Shown here: positions 6,773-21,750 of the stretch, one piece after another
How the letters are laid out: each line of letters opens with the position of its first letter
How positions within the stretch are numbered: the stretch's first letter is position 1
The notes under the pieces: model-generated
What the model was told of the DNA's origin: nothing
What the model saw: only the letters and a program-made list of their open reading frames with translations
The model's database searches: none
Made by a program: the position numbers and the translations under genes
Origin: Defluviicoccus sp.
GTDB taxonomy: Bacteria; Pseudomonadota; Alphaproteobacteria; MPNO01
Direction of reading: 5' to 3'
Assembly: GCA_028820505.1 (NCBI GenBank)
Contig: JAPPIT010000026.1
Span: 1 to 44,711 of the forward strand
Length of the DNA stretch: 44,711 nt

Positions 6773-6828
6773 GGGACAGGCGGGCGGGAGCGGCGCCTGA
6801 CAGGCCGGACCCCGTCGCTTTCCCCCAC

Positions 6829-6941
6829 CGTCATGCCCGGACTTGTTCCGGGCATCCACGTCCCTCCGCCGCCTCGCCCTCTCCCGGCTCGCACCACGAT
6901 GCCGCAAGACGTGGATGCCCGGAACAAGTCCGGGCATGACG
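6829..6941. repeat. Paired inverted palindromic repeat, family A
   Basis: Two 34-base units, 6829-6862 and 6908-6941, are perfect reverse complements separated by 45 bases. Each unit contains the family A core (CATGCCCGGA, CTTGT, TCCGGGCAT) and can itself fold. The inner flank reads CATCCACGTC rather than CATGACG, so outer and inner sides of each unit differ. The arrangement resembles BIME-type pairs of REP elements. Confidence 0.88.
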
Positions 6942-7174
6942 ACAAGGGGGGCAGCGCATCGCGCGCCGGCCGGTGTTAACCACAGTTGACAGTGCGGCGA
7001 CCCGGCGCCGCCGCCGGGGCGGCGGCGGCGGTTTTCCGAACCGATCCGGCAGCAATCGCCGCCAACGCGCTGGCGCGGCGGGGAGATTCGCGGTCGCATC
7101 CGCGCCGCGCGGCGCCCGGCCGGCGCGACGTCGTGTCCCCCGGGGACGCGAAAAATAGTCTCATATCCGACCAA

Positions 7175-7190
7175 TGTTTCACGTGAAACA
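7175..7190. other. parS centromere site 1
   Basis: TGTTTCACGTGAAACA, an exact match to the widely conserved chromosomal parS palindrome bound by ParB. ParB loads here as a CTP-dependent clamp, spreads, and partitions the origin region with ParA. Such sites normally cluster around the replication origin, so this window may be origin-proximal; that step is inference. Confidence 0.9.
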
Positions 7191-7211
7191 AAGGTCAACC
7201 ATGCTGACCTT

Positions 7212-7227
7212 TGTTTCACGTGAAACA
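7212..7227. other. parS centromere site 2
   Basis: A second exact TGTTTCACGTGAAACA, centred 37 bp from site 1, about 3.5 helical turns. It lies within the opposite arm of the inverted repeat. A close pair of perfect sites is expected to load ParB strongly. Confidence 0.9.
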
Positions 7228-7250
7228 TTAGCAGGGTGCGAGCCCCCACC

Positions 7251-7520
7251 TCAATCGAACAGCACGTCGTCGAGGAAGGGGTCTTCGGGGAGCGCGGTCT
7301 CGCTGTCCAGCAGCGCGCCGCAGGCGGGGCAGGCGAAGCGGCGCAGCACCACCCGCTCGCCGCCGCTATAGGGCACGCCGGCGGCGCCGCGCATCGGAAT
7401 CTCGGTCATCGCGGCGTTCGGTTTCCACGGCGCGCCGCTGGGGCCCAGCGCGTAACCGCATTTGCGGCAGCGGATCTCGCCGTCCTCGATCTCCAGCGTG
7501 GTGGAGAGGCGCCGGCTCAT
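7251..7520 (-). CDS. Zinc-ribbon gamma-type subunit of a hydantoinase/carboxylase complex
   Basis: An 89-aa protein with two CxxC pairs, C18-x-x-C21 and C64-x-x-C67, forming a likely zinc ribbon. Small zinc proteins of this sort accompany HyuA- and HyuB-like subunits in acetone and acetophenone carboxylases, where they are structural or help position the active site. The start ATG at 7520 overlaps the stop of the large beta-type subunit (ATGA), which fits a three-gene operon read from right to left. The protein is shorter than the acetone carboxylase gamma subunit (about 170 aa) and nearer the small acetophenone carboxylase subunit. The functional call rests mainly on context and the two cysteine pairs. 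Confidence 0.8.
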   Translation of the reverse strand: MSRRLSTTLEIEDGEIRCRKCGYALGPSGAPWKPNAAMTEIPMRGAAGVPYSGGERVVLRRFACPACGALLDSETALPEDPFLDDVLFD

Positions 7521-9352
7521 TCGGCGGCCTCGGCCGGTATCCGCGCGGCGGCGAGCGCCTTGCGACGGGCTTCCGTGGCGGAAGCATCGAACGAGGACAG
7601 GCTCTCGTCCATGACGACGCCGTAGACGTTCTCCGCCGTCTCGCGCGATACCGCGCCGGTGCGGCAATCCTCCAGCACCGTCCCGGGCTCGCGGTCCAGC
7701 GGGTCGCCGTAGCCGCCGCCGCCGTTCCAGCGCACATAGAGCACGTCCTCGCCCATCAGCGGGAACACGCCCCAGGAAATCCGCTCCTGGTCGCCCGGCA
7801 AATCGTCGACCGCCTGGCCGAACCCGGCATCGGCGTTGCGCGGGTCGGGCTCCGCCTCGTTGTTCTTCACCCAGATGTAGGAATTCGGCGCCCCGGGATA
7901 GCCGCCGGCGAGTCCCTCGCTCATCGGGAAGTCGGCGCCCTTGCCGGAGACCACGTAGTGGAGCCCGCCGTCGGGCGCGTCGTGCGGGGTGAGGCCGATC
8001 TCCATGCCCGCGCCGCCGCGATAGCGCCCCGGCCCGCCGGAATCCGTCATCCGGCGGCGGAACAGGTAGCGCAGCGGGAATATGGTCTCCAGCGTCTCGA
8101 CATTGGCCATGCGCGAGATCGGGTTGGGGATCTCGCCGCCGACGTCGATGCCGTCGGCGAAGTTGCGCGCCCCGCCCGAGCCCGCGAAGGTCTCGGTCAG
8201 GATGCCGATGGCCTCGCCGCCGTGCTGGTTGCGGCCGAACATGAAGACGGCGAAGTGGTTGGCGTGCCAGACCGCGGTCGCCTCGCTGGCGTATTTCTCG
8301 CTCGCGTCCAGCATCTTCCCGATCGCCGCGCAGGCCGCGTTGTTGACCGACTGGATCGCGCCCACGGTGGCGACCGAGACCGGCGCGGGCCGCGTGCAGT
8401 TCACGATCGAGCCCTCGGGCGCGATCATCTCGATCGGCCTGACCACGCCCTCGTTCCAGGTGATGTCGAAGCAGAGCAGCGGGAACAGCGGCGCGAACAG
8501 ACCGCCGAGCGAGGCCCATTTCGTGCAGTTGATCGCGTACGGCGCCTGCGGGCTCGATCCCGAGAAATCGAACACCAGCCGGTCGTCCCGCTTGGTCATG
8601 GTGAGGTTGACCTTGAACACCTCGCCCTTGACGTCGATGTACTGGCGCGACTGCCAGGACCCGTCGGGCAGCTCGCGCAGCCGCTCGCGCAGCAGCTCCT
8701 CGGATTGCTCGATCAGCGTGCGGCAGGCCTCGTCGACGGTGTCGTGGCCGTATTTTTCGATCAGCGCCAGCATGCGCTCGCGCGCGACGTTGTTGCAGGC
8801 GATCATCGAGGACATATCGAGGGCGACCATCTCGGGCGAGCGCACCATGTTCAGCATGGTGTCCATCACGTCATGGTTCACCGTGCCGCCGCTGACCAGC
8901 CGGATGCCGGGCGAGGAGAACCCCTCGGTGAAGATGTCGGGCGCGTCGGGGCAGAACCCGCCCGGATTGGTCGCGCCGATGTCGTAGACGTGGACGAAGC
9001 AGGCGCTCCAGGCGACCAGCTCGCCGTCATGGTGGATCGGCGCGACGAGATAGATGTCGGAGGTATGAAGGGCGGCGGTGTAGGGATCGTTGAGCAGGAA
9101 GACGTCGCCCTCGTTGATGTCGTCTCCGAACCGCCGGATCGTCGCCTTGCAGGCCTCGGCCGCGCTGGTGAGATGGTGCAGGAAGCCGACGCCTCCCATC
9201 AGCAGCGAGCCGTCCGCGCGATAGAGCGAGACCATCAGGTCGTGGCCCTCGTTGGTGATCGCGGAGCCGGAGACGTGCTTGAGCGTGATCACCGCCTCGT
9301 CGACGATGCGGAACAGGCGGTGGCGGATGATGGAAAAGGTGATGGGATCCAT
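7517..9352 (-). CDS. Hydantoinase B/oxoprolinase family protein (HyuB-like)
   Basis: A 611-aa protein of the HyuB family. It opens with MDPITFSIIRHRL, typical of the family start. It also contains the LNDPYTAALHTSDIYL motif near residue 95 and the conserved CPDAPDIFTEGF segment near 135. Family members act with a HyuA partner in ATP-dependent hydantoin or 5-oxoproline ring opening, or as the carboxylating half of acetone and acetophenone carboxylases. The start chosen is ATG 9352; upstream in-frame sequence lies inside hyuA. HyuA ends 11 bp upstream, and the small zinc subunit overlaps its stop. The presence of that subunit favours a ketone carboxylase-like complex over a simple hydantoinase, but the substrate is not known. 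Confidence 0.9.
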   Translation of the reverse strand: MDPITFSIIRHRLFRIVDEAVITLKHVSGSAITNEGHDLMVSLYRADGSLLMGGVGFLHHLTSAAEACKATIRRFGDDINEGDVFLLNDPYTAALHTSDIYLVAPIHHDGELVAWSACFVHVYDIGATNPGGFCPDAPDIFTEGFSSPGIRLVSGGTVNHDVMDTMLNMVRSPEMVALDMSSMIACNNVARERMLALIEKYGHDTVDEACRTLIEQSEELLRERLRELPDGSWQSRQYIDVKGEVFKVNLTMTKRDDRLVFDFSGSSPQAPYAINCTKWASLGGLFAPLFPLLCFDITWNEGVVRPIEMIAPEGSIVNCTRPAPVSVATVGAIQSVNNAACAAIGKMLDASEKYASEATAVWHANHFAVFMFGRNQHGGEAIGILTETFAGSGGARNFADGIDVGGEIPNPISRMANVETLETIFPLRYLFRRRMTDSGGPGRYRGGAGMEIGLTPHDAPDGGLHYVVSGKGADFPMSEGLAGGYPGAPNSYIWVKNNEAEPDPRNADAGFGQAVDDLPGDQERISWGVFPLMGEDVLYVRWNGGGGYGDPLDREPGTVLEDCRTGAVSRETAENVYGVVMDESLSSFDASATEARRKALAAARIPAEAAE

Positions 9353-18763: not shown

Positions 18764-19558
18764 TCAGGCGACGCTCGCCCGGGGGGTACGGGCCGCCGCA
18801 TACGCCCGCGCGGCGTCGCCGAACGCGCGGAACAGCGCGCTGGACAAGGCGTGTTCCCCGTAGCGGTGCTCGGCGTGCCACTGCACGCCGACGACGAAGG
18901 TGTTGCCGTCGCCGAGCCGGATCCCCTCGATCAGACCGTCGGAGGCGGTCGCCTCCACCTCGAGCCCGTCGGCCAGCCGGTCGATTCCCTGGGCGTGCGC
19001 GGTGTTGACCTCGATGCCGGTGTCTCCGATCAGCCGTTCGAACAGCCCGCCGGGCGTGAACGAAACCCGGTGCAGCTTGCCGAACCTTTCGTCGATGCTG
19101 CCGTCCCTGGGCATCCGGTGGTCTTGCTTCCCCTCGACCAGATGCACGCGGTAATGCAGCGAGCCGCCGAGCGCCACGTTCATCTCCTGCAACCCGCGGC
19201 AAACGCCGAACACGGGCACGCCGCGGTCGACGCAGGCCCGGATCAGGGGCAGCACCGTGTTGTCGCGGGGCGGGTCGCGATACTCGTCCTCGGGAAAGGG
19301 CGGTCCGCCATAGTGGTGGGGCTCGATATTGGCGCGGCCGCCGGTCAGGAACAGGCCGTCGAGCCGGCTCGCCATCAGGTCGAAGTCGAAATCCTCCGCC
19401 AACGCGGGAACGAGCAGCGGGTCGGCGTCGGAGCCGTCCCTGACCGCCCGGATGTAGCGCTCGCCGATACCGTGGGTGGGGATCGAATGCCCCGGCAACT
19501 GGATCAGACCGGCGGGAATGCCGACCAGGGGGCGCATGCCGAACCTTGGACTGTTCAT
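18764..19558 (-). CDS. Class I glutamine amidotransferase-like gamma-glutamyl hydrolase (PuuD-type)
   Basis: A 264-aa peptidase C26-type hydrolase. The nucleophile is C120 in the elbow FGVCRGLQEMN, with H228 and E230 in QWHAEH completing the triad (most relatives read QWHPE). LTGGRANIEPHHYG at 71-84 is the oxyanion-side loop. PuuD and its relatives hydrolyse gamma-glutamyl-GABA or similar gamma-glutamyl amides. No other putrescine pathway gene is present. It lies 101 bp downstream of a KamA-family aminomutase on the same strand, so a gamma-glutamyl derivative of a beta-amino acid is one possible substrate; that is inference. A GGAG lies close before ATG 19558. Confidence 0.88.
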   Translation of the reverse strand: MNSPRFGMRPLVGIPAGLIQLPGHSIPTHGIGERYIRAVRDGSDADPLLVPALAEDFDFDLMASRLDGLFLTGGRANIEPHHYGGPPFPEDEYRDPPRDNTVLPLIRACVDRGVPVFGVCRGLQEMNVALGGSLHYRVHLVEGKQDHRMPRDGSIDERFGKLHRVSFTPGGLFERLIGDTGIEVNTAHAQGIDRLADGLEVEATASDGLIEGIRLGDGNTFVVGVQWHAEHRYGEHALSSALFRAFGDAARAYAAARTPRASVA

Positions 19559-19659: not shown

Positions 19660-21105
19660 TTACTCGGCCGCCACCGAGAACTCGGGTATCGACGCACCCC
19701 CGGTCATCTCGGCGAGCTCGTCCTCGAAGAAGAACTTCTCTTCCCCGAAAGCGGGCTTGAGATGGTTGAGCCAGGTCGCGTCCGGGTTGAAGGCGGCGAA
19801 GAACGGACGGCCCACCCATTCGGGGTTGCGTCCCTGCAGGAAGCGGAGCACGAACACCTTCTCCCCGTGGACTTCCTGGATGCCGAGGACCTCGACCTTG
19901 CCGGGCGTCGCGCTCATGCTCGGGCCGCGAACCGTCCGGGCGAGGCCGGAAACGCTGCGGACCGCGTGGTTGTAGATCGTCCACACCTTGTCGAGCGGCA
20001 CTTCGAAATAGCATTTCGCGCCGGTGTCCCGCTCGACGAACAGGTAATAGGGGATGATGCCCAGCGCCACCTGCTCGCGCCACATGCGCGCCCATATCTC
20101 GGGCGAGTCGTTGACGTGGGCGAGCGCCGGAGCCTGGCTGCGAATGACCGCGCCGGTATCGCGCAGGCGCCGGATCGCCTCACGCGCAACGTCGGTGCCG
20201 AATTCCTGCCAATGATTGAAGTGCGCCATGATGGCGACGCTCCGGCCGGAACCGACCACCCGTTCCAGCAGGCGCAGCATGTCGTCCGCATCGGGGTCGC
20301 TCACGAAGCGGAGCGGCCAGAATGTCAGAGCCTTGGTGCCGATCCTGATATTGCGGAGATGGTCGAAACGGGGATCTTCGATGAGGGGATCCAGGTAGCG
20401 CTCCATCACGCGGGTCTTCATCACCATGGGATCGCCGCCGGTGATCAGCAGGTCGCTGACATCGCGATGGGAAGCGAGATAGTCGTGCAGCCCGCTCGCT
20501 TCGTTGGCCGCGATCTTGTACGACTTTTCGCCCACGAACTGGGCCCAGCGGAAGCAGAACGAGCAGTAAGCGTGACAGGTCTGCCCCTGGCTCGGGAAAA
20601 AGAGCACGGTTTCGCGGTACTTGTGCTGTAGTCCTTCCACCGTTCCCTGCTCGGTTTGCGGAATGTTCAATTCCCGCTGGCCGGCCGGGTGGGGGTTGAG
20701 CTTGTCGCGGATTCCGAAGACCGCGGCGTTGAGCTCCTTCGACGAGACATCCCGCTTCAACAAATCCGCGACCAGGTCGAAGTCCTCGTCTTCCAGCATT
20801 CCCCTTTGCGGAAAGGTGATCTGATAGACCGGATCCCCGGGAATGTTGTCCCAGTCGATGAGGTTGTCGATCAGGTACCGGTTGGAGCGGAAGGGCAGCA
20901 CGCTGCTCACGACCCGCATCGAGAAGCGTTCTTCGCTGGAAAGCTTCCGCAGTTGGGGGAGGTCGTCGAGGTGTTTGGCCGTGATCGGACTGAAACGTTC
21001 GCCGGAAAACTCGGGTGTCACGGCCGTCGTGGACGAAATCCCCACCGATGCGGCTCCGGCACCGTCTTCGTCGGGTCTTGCGGTTGTCTGATGTTCGGAG
21101 GTCAC
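19660..21105 (-). CDS. KamA-family radical SAM 2,3-aminomutase, altered substrate pocket
   Basis: A 481-aa radical SAM enzyme of the lysine 2,3-aminomutase family. The [4Fe-4S] motif is C177-x3-C181-x2-C184, and R186 matches the carboxylate-binding Arg of lysine aminomutase. TPGK gives K403 as the probable PLP lysine. By hand alignment with clostridial lysine aminomutase, the two Asp that hold the lysine side-chain amine (D293, D330) correspond here to R359 and S396. That argues against lysine and towards an acidic or neutral amino acid, as in glutamate 2,3-aminomutase. The start is GTG 21105 with GGGAG upstream. N- and C-terminal extensions are longer than in EpmB, and no EF-P gene is nearby. 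Confidence 0.88.
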   Translation of the reverse strand: MTSEHQTTARPDEDGAGAASVGISSTTAVTPEFSGERFSPITAKHLDDLPQLRKLSSEERFSMRVVSSVLPFRSNRYLIDNLIDWDNIPGDPVYQITFPQRGMLEDEDFDLVADLLKRDVSSKELNAAVFGIRDKLNPHPAGQRELNIPQTEQGTVEGLQHKYRETVLFFPSQGQTCHAYCSFCFRWAQFVGEKSYKIAANEASGLHDYLASHRDVSDLLITGGDPMVMKTRVMERYLDPLIEDPRFDHLRNIRIGTKALTFWPLRFVSDPDADDMLRLLERVVGSGRSVAIMAHFNHWQEFGTDVAREAIRRLRDTGAVIRSQAPALAHVNDSPEIWARMWREQVALGIIPYYLFVERDTGAKCYFEVPLDKVWTIYNHAVRSVSGLARTVRGPSMSATPGKVEVLGIQEVHGEKVFVLRFLQGRNPEWVGRPFFAAFNPDATWLNHLKPAFGEEKFFFEDELAEMTGGASIPEFSVAAE

Positions 21106-21340
21106 GACATCGATCTCCCGTAACAGCGGTGGGCCTGTACCGTGCTGATTTTACTGCCTCGATAGCGATATGTTTTGCGCGCTCAGGTTAGCCGGCAACC
21201 GGCGGCAGGTCAAATTATGGGGTTTGTATAGACTGCTTGACGGGCGTCCGGCTGGCGCGGGCCGTCGACGGGCAGGCCTCTCCGCCGCGGCCGGCGTACA
21301 TCTCCGGTCGTCCGTCACGGTCGGCGCCCCACCCGCCCCC

Positions 21341-21460
21341 CTGTTGTCACCCCGGCCTTGAGCCGGGGTCCAGACTGTCAGGCGCCGCTCTCGCCCGGTT
21401 TCCCCCGGAACGGGGTCCGGGGCAGGCCTGGACCCCGGATCAAGTCCGGGGTGACAACAG
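21341..21460. repeat. Paired inverted palindromic repeat, family C, copy 1
   Basis: Units 21341-21373 and 21428-21460 (33 bases each) are reverse complements with two mismatches. The core is TGTCACCCCGG, CTTGAG, CCGGGGTCCAG. The two units are separated by 54 bases. Confidence 0.87.
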
Positions 21461-21623
21461 GGGGCGCGGAGATGTGTTCGCCGATGGCGGGGGACAATAC
21501 CGGGCGAGGCGGGCCGTCTCCGCCACTCTCCTCCCTCCCAGTCGTCATGCCCGGAACAAGTCCATTGCTGTCCGGTTTAGCTTTTCAGCGCGGGTTCCGC
21601 GCCCATGAGAGAGGCCGTCTCCG

Positions 21624-21750
21624 CCCCCGCTGTCACCCCGGCCTTGAGCCGGGGTCCAGCCTGTCAGGCACCGCCGTCGCCCGGCTTTCCCCGGATCGGT
21701 TGTCCGGGGCGAGCCTGGACCCCGGCTCAAGGCCGGGGTGACAGCGGGGG
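21624..21750. repeat. Paired inverted palindromic repeat, family C, copy 2
   Basis: Units 21624-21659 and 21715-21750 (36 bases each) are perfect reverse complements separated by 55 bases. The core is the same as copy 1 and the spacers are also alike (CTGTCAGGC just after the left unit), so the two copies stem from one whole element rather than from single units. Confidence 0.9.

Follow-up and report, generated by a model that had tools for sequence, protein, structure and literature searches.

The window analyzed here, a stretch of 44,711 nucleotides from contig JAPPIT010000026.1 of Defluviicoccus sp., encodes a 481-amino-acid radical S-adenosylmethionine (SAM) and pyridoxal 5'-phosphate (PLP) protein of the KamA superfamily. 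The open reading frame begins with GTG, has GGGAG a few bases 5' of this codon, and shows a GC content of 0.63, 0.43, and 0.83 at codon positions 1, 2, and 3. Its surroundings encode LolA, an FtsK-like protein, a PuuD-like protein, ExoIII, and a histidine phosphatase. Our data indicate that the 481-amino-acid protein is probably a PLP- and SAM-dependent amino acid 2,3-aminomutase from a branch of the superfamily with arginine in the substrate pocket (referred to here as Arg-type), with L-glutamate as the most likely substrate.

The protein carries the hallmarks of the KamA superfamily, namely a CX3CX2C motif, the PLP lysine, the arginine that binds the substrate carboxylate, and a fold like that of 2a5h, the lysine 2,3-aminomutase (LAM) of Clostridium subterminale. 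In NCBIfam, TIGR00238 matched with an E value of 4.9e-38 and 131 bits, below its curated cut-off of 199, and the curated cut-off was reached for no KamA-group member family: scores were 110.8 bits against 525 for LAM (TIGR03820), 83.8 against 650 for clostridial glutamate 2,3-aminomutase (EAM, TIGR04368), and 79 against 600 for the arginine 2,3-aminomutase BlsG (TIGR04468). A Pfam search at an E value of 1e-3 gave no match, and a sequence search of the PDB returned 2a5h as the sole match. The AlphaFold2 model (mean predicted local distance difference test score 81, predicted TM score 0.82) superimposed on 2a5h with a Z score of 30.2 and a root mean square deviation of 3.7 over 330 residues, while the second-best fold reached a Z score of 13.9. 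Structural alignments gave 20-22% identity between LAM and the family of the window protein. That family was sampled as the window protein and its 80 best matches, a similarity-biased set of 81 members in which the matches are 58-95% identical to the window protein.

We next compared the active site with that of LAM, using a C. subterminale reference sequence that was checked as identical to 2a5h. In an alignment of the 81 members with LAM, C177, C181, and C184 correspond to LAM C125, C129, and C132, R186 to R134, and K403 to K337. The two aspartates that hold the lysine side chain in LAM, D293 and D330, fall opposite R359 and S396. All seven of these window residues, as well as E358 and D360 on either side of R359, are invariant in the family (81 of 81 members), so that the first-pass annotation, which had described the conserved catalytic residues and the loss of the aspartate pair from a hand-made alignment, is borne out on both counts. 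Thus, all LAM catalytic residues that we examined are retained except the side-chain aspartate pair. Beyond the pocket, the window protein differs from LAM in an extra N-terminal segment, in an N-terminal part that is strongly unlike LAM, and in invariant inserts at residues 133-149 and W187. The arginine at the R186 place is kept across all KamA branches; W187 is restricted to the window family and proteins close to it.

The placement of R359 depends on the alignment register. In the phmmer and hhalign alignments E358, rather than R359, faces D293, at the price of a gap that brings two glycines into line; we rejected this register on loop length and on gap-free intermediates. All KamA branches sampled share a distance of 15 from the PYY motif to the following phenylalanine (for LAM, BlsG, and some KamA sequences it was read from the alignment, since an earlier unrelated PYY exists there). 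Furthermore, KamA proteins of rhizobia and Paenibacillus, which align with LAM without gaps, carry arginine at the D293 place, and a divergent member that is 41% identical to the window protein (locus L094) has proline at position 358 and keeps the arginine. Given the constant loop length and these intermediates, we regard R359 as the residue at the D293 place as settled at the sequence level. The gene of the divergent member (L094, 1498-2814) adjoins one for a SAM-methyltransferase-like protein.

We found that arginine at the D293 place marks one clade of the superfamily. Aspartate occupies this place in LAM (AblA), BlsG, EpmB, and TIGR03822 proteins, including a KamA paralogue in the same genome (contig C131) that scores above the TIGR03822 cut-off and has both aspartates. 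BlsG is thus a fellow member of the superfamily that, unlike the window protein, retains the aspartate. Arginine occupies it in the window family, in actinobacterial and beta-proteobacterial relatives that are 50-55% identical to the window protein, and in distant rhizobial and Paenibacillus proteins. In a maximum-likelihood tree all Arg-type sequences lie on one side of a branch with 100/100 support, with long branches and an unsure order of the deepest splits. The Arg-type genes are currently filed as lysine 2,3-aminomutase, the database label of the 50-55% identical relatives, or as unnamed KamA. The S396 place is more variable: it is serine in a group of Proteobacteria, Binatota, and Nitrospinota and in the beta-proteobacterial relatives, valine in actinobacteria, and isoleucine in rhizobia.

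These data support the conclusion that the pocket of the window protein is not that of a lysine enzyme. In glutamate 2,3-aminomutase the two LAM aspartates are replaced by lysine and asparagine, as the first-pass annotation had stated and as the SFLD paper from which we took this rule states (PMC3965090); a basic residue at the D293 place therefore already marks one glutamate enzyme. Clostridial EAM would share with the window family the superfamily, the chemistry, the probable substrate, and this basic residue; it differs in being a close relative of LAM with a Lys/Asn pocket, whereas the window family has Arg/Ser. The earlier proposal of a non-lysine pocket agrees with the reversal of charge to arginine across the clade, and that of a glutamate-like substrate with the relative described below. 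Its equation of S396 with the EAM asparagine did not hold, since the place is valine or isoleucine in relatives; in the alignment it is non-acidic throughout, yet no fixed counterpart of that asparagine.

Further evidence comes from actinomycete biosynthesis. In incednine formation, feeding shows beta-glutamate as an intermediate and IdnL3 decarboxylates it; disruption of idnL4 confirms the part of this gene in 3-aminobutyrate formation, while in vitro activity of IdnL4 was never observed (PMC11284099). PlmK of the pretilactam cluster (450 amino acids) has an annotated lysine 2,3-aminomutase as its best match and has likewise been assigned as a glutamate 2,3-aminomutase (PMC6631532). We compared this type with the window protein through a stand-in from Streptomyces NBC_00334 (L142), the nearest relative with a functional anchor, which is approximately 49% identical to the window protein. 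It lies in the same tree clade and keeps the arginine pocket in the motif FVERDTG, the tryptophan inserted after the cysteine motif, and the MS..GK loop. Its gene sits between modular polyketide synthase genes of a macrolactam cluster of the incednine type and adjoins a gene for a PLP-dependent aminotransferase-like protein. The closest structures to the adenylation enzyme and the iminopeptidase of this cluster are 5jjq (619 bits) and 3wmr, which we take to be IdnL1 and VinJ, respectively. At the window, by comparison, the gene stands alone, with neither a beta-glutamate decarboxylase gene nor macrolactam polyketide synthase genes adjoining it. Overall, the best description is an IdnL4-like glutamate 2,3-aminomutase with an arginine pocket, a variant separate from clostridial EAM and with a putative activity.

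We infer the following reaction from the residues and their LAM counterparts. A [4Fe-4S] cluster on C177, C181, and C184 would cleave SAM to give a 5'-deoxyadenosyl radical. Glutamate would be bound as an external aldimine on PLP, which K403 otherwise holds; R186 would bind the alpha-carboxylate of the substrate and R359, in place of the lysine-binding aspartate of LAM, its gamma-carboxylate. Hydrogen abstraction at C3, an azacyclopropyl-type rearrangement, and return of the hydrogen would then yield beta-glutamate (3-aminoglutarate).

Some of our data weigh against glutamate. The stand-in homologue has valine at the S396 place, so the two pockets are not identical, and the invariant E358 and D360 might themselves occupy the side-chain pocket. 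The contexts of the proteobacterial loci show nothing that points to glutamate or salt. Na+ riboswitches are known to regulate ablA and eam in connection with salt (PMC9337991); no riboswitch of this or another class scored above the gathering score in the window, at the three nearest orthologue loci, or at seven others. We therefore weighed other substrates. It is unlikely that the 2,3-aminomutase acts on a different acidic amino acid or on an amide, such as 2-aminoadipate or glutamine, the latter giving beta-glutamine directly, although this reading draws on the serine that is invariant in the group of Proteobacteria, Binatota, and Nitrospinota and in the beta-proteobacterial relatives; serine there against actinobacterial valine would mark the proteobacterial-group substrate as unlike the actinobacterial one. 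Beta-glutamine is moreover a known zwitterionic solute, yet in Methanohalophilus it arises from beta-glutamate via glutamine synthetase (PMC1224877), and R359, which both groups share, fits a carboxylate better than an amide.

We consider it improbable that the enzyme acts on lysine or arginine with E358 or D360, rather than R359, holding the basic side chain. The gapped phmmer and hhalign register, the invariance of both acidic residues, and the database label of the nearer relatives would favor such an enzyme; however, a loop of constant length needs no gap, the gap-free intermediates have arginine at the D293 place, and the arginine outlasts E358 in the divergent member with Pro358. The second aspartate, at the D330 place, is lost as well, and the genome already has the TIGR03822 paralogue with both aspartates. 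It gave no AblB match, while the search control matched in other genomes, and thus shows no sign of the N-acetyl-beta-lysine route. Least probable of all is a different PLP and radical reaction on the KamA fold, such as one on an amino acid attached to a peptide or carrier. The unusual N-terminal region, the invariant inserts, and the location of some relatives in nonribosomal peptide synthetase clusters are in keeping with it, but the genes of most members stand alone, and no carrier protein was noticed near them; the LAM catalytic residues examined are kept apart from the side-chain pair.

We asked where the window-type family occurs. It was present in all five sampled genomes of the window's genus and in 1 of 21 other genomes of the order, and the single further genome from the same taxonomic family lacked it. 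Among Pseudomonadota it was found in 13 of 398 genomes, among Nitrospinota in 13 of 18, and in the family of Nitrosomonas europaea in 13 of 100. The carriers with names, drawn from the similarity-biased list of the 80 best matches, are chiefly halophiles or marine bacteria (Marinobacter, Ectothiorhodospira, Thiohalocapsa, Thiohalomonas, Tamilnaduibacter, and Denitromonas halophila) and further include N. europaea, Aromatoleum, and Comamonas. The family is thus patchy in halophiles and common in Nitrospinota.

Methanogens and Nocardiopsis halophila are known to use beta-glutamate as a solute (PMC1224877). In Nitrosopumilus maritimus its concentration reaches 730 mM; in the North Pacific its abundance is higher in deep than in surface water, and the phytoplankton cultures that were tested contained none (PMC8269262). 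Based on distribution and chemistry, it is plausible, if more speculative than the substrate, that marine and halophilic bacteria use the product as a compatible solute. A search for ectoine synthesis gave no match in the Defluviicoccus genome, and its control likewise matched nowhere. We tentatively propose a broader possibility, which we hold with less than even confidence: that the Arg-pocket enzyme is a second, independently evolved glutamate 2,3-aminomutase with which many marine and halophilic bacteria, perhaps including Marinobacter, Ectothiorhodospira, Thiohalocapsa, and Nitrospinota, would make the osmolyte beta-glutamate by means of a single gene, and which actinomycetes would use for macrolactam starter units. 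If so, it would explain one bacterial source of marine beta-glutamate and supply a marker gene for bacterial beta-glutamate that the known enzyme families fail to recognize. A single residue, arginine at the D293 place, would then divide a large mislabeled or unnamed group from the true lysine enzymes. Marinobacter, N. europaea, and Ectothiorhodospira would offer cultivable sources of this enzyme type, for which work with IdnL4 failed to demonstrate activity.

Table 1. Features of the aminomutase locus, in coordinates of the window.
Feature	Position	Strand	Length	Remarks
Radical SAM/PLP protein, KamA superfamily, Arg-type; probable glutamate 2,3-aminomutase	19660..21105	-	481 aa	
CX3CX2C radical SAM motif (C177 H A Y C181 S F C184)	20554..20577	-		Residues 177-184; Cys invariant in 81/81
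R186 and W187	20545..20550	-		R186 codon 20548-20550, LAM R134 place (substrate carboxylate); W187 inserted residue; both invariant
E358-R359-D360	20026..20034	-		R359 codon 20029-20031, LAM D293 place
S396 to K403	19897..19920	-		S396 codon 19918-19920, LAM D330 place; K403 codon 19897-19899, LAM K337 (PLP Schiff base)
PuuD-like class I amidotransferase (Peptidase_C26, 2.5e-60)	18764..19558	-	264 aa	101-bp gap to aminomutase gene

We clustered the neighbors of the 80 orthologues, part of which were named by Pfam, to ask whether the gene belongs to an operon. The neighbors are mostly housekeeping genes that vary by taxon, and no neighbor common to distant taxa was found among the 80 loci, as would be expected for a one-step product. 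The PuuD-like gene does follow the aminomutase gene on the same strand, as had been noted; its suggested functional link was not upheld. The encoded protein has the Peptidase_C26 domain and scores 150.9 bits against the cut-off of 266 for PuuD, the gamma-glutamyl-GABA (gamma-aminobutyrate) hydrolase (NF008471). Among the loci compared, the two genes are adjacent in no genus other than that of the window, and we therefore dropped the PuuD-like gene as a partner. The lone glutamate-related context among these loci is in Candidatus Binatia (L006, 7399-8997), where the orthologue has a glutamate dehydrogenase-type gene immediately upstream, in divergent orientation.

Several Arg-type genes lie in other settings. 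Distant Arg-type KamA genes are found on legume-symbiont plasmids of Rhizobium etli (L144, 6707-7864) and Bradyrhizobium barranii (L145, approximately 6782-7849), with nifX nearby or with genes for a gamma-glutamyltransferase and a D-Ala-D-Ala-ligase-like ATP-grasp protein adjoining. These proteins and that of Paenibacillus (L146) share the arginine and the MS..GK loop with the window protein; they differ in being shorter, in lacking the tryptophan insert, and in adjoining ATP-grasp and gamma-glutamyltransferase genes, and the R. etli protein is approximately 31% identical to the window protein. On a plasmid of Amycolatopsis sp. AA4 (L136, 7999-19676), an Arg-type gene stands amid genes for a Glu/Leu dehydrogenase, two HpcH/citrate-lyase-type CoA ester lyases, MaoC dehydratases, a CoA transferase, and a PLP aminotransferase, a set that could possibly form a whole pathway through beta-glutamate. 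An uncharacterized biosynthetic cluster on a plasmid of Rhodococcus sp. DK176 (L140, 7035-20722) holds an Arg-type gene together with genes for a SidA-type monooxygenase, a MupA-type luciferase-like enzyme, an adenylation enzyme, a carrier protein, and a class I tRNA-ligase-like protein. A Klebsiella plasmid (L135) has a different KamA gene, followed by a tRNA-ligase-like gene.

Finally, two repeats of approximately 127 bp (21337-21464 and 21624-21750) lie between the LolA and aminomutase genes of the window. They are direct copies, 79-88% alike, with inverted arms of 37-39 nucleotides (GTCACCCCGGCCTTGAGCCGGGGTCCAG...), and resemble repetitive extragenic palindromes.
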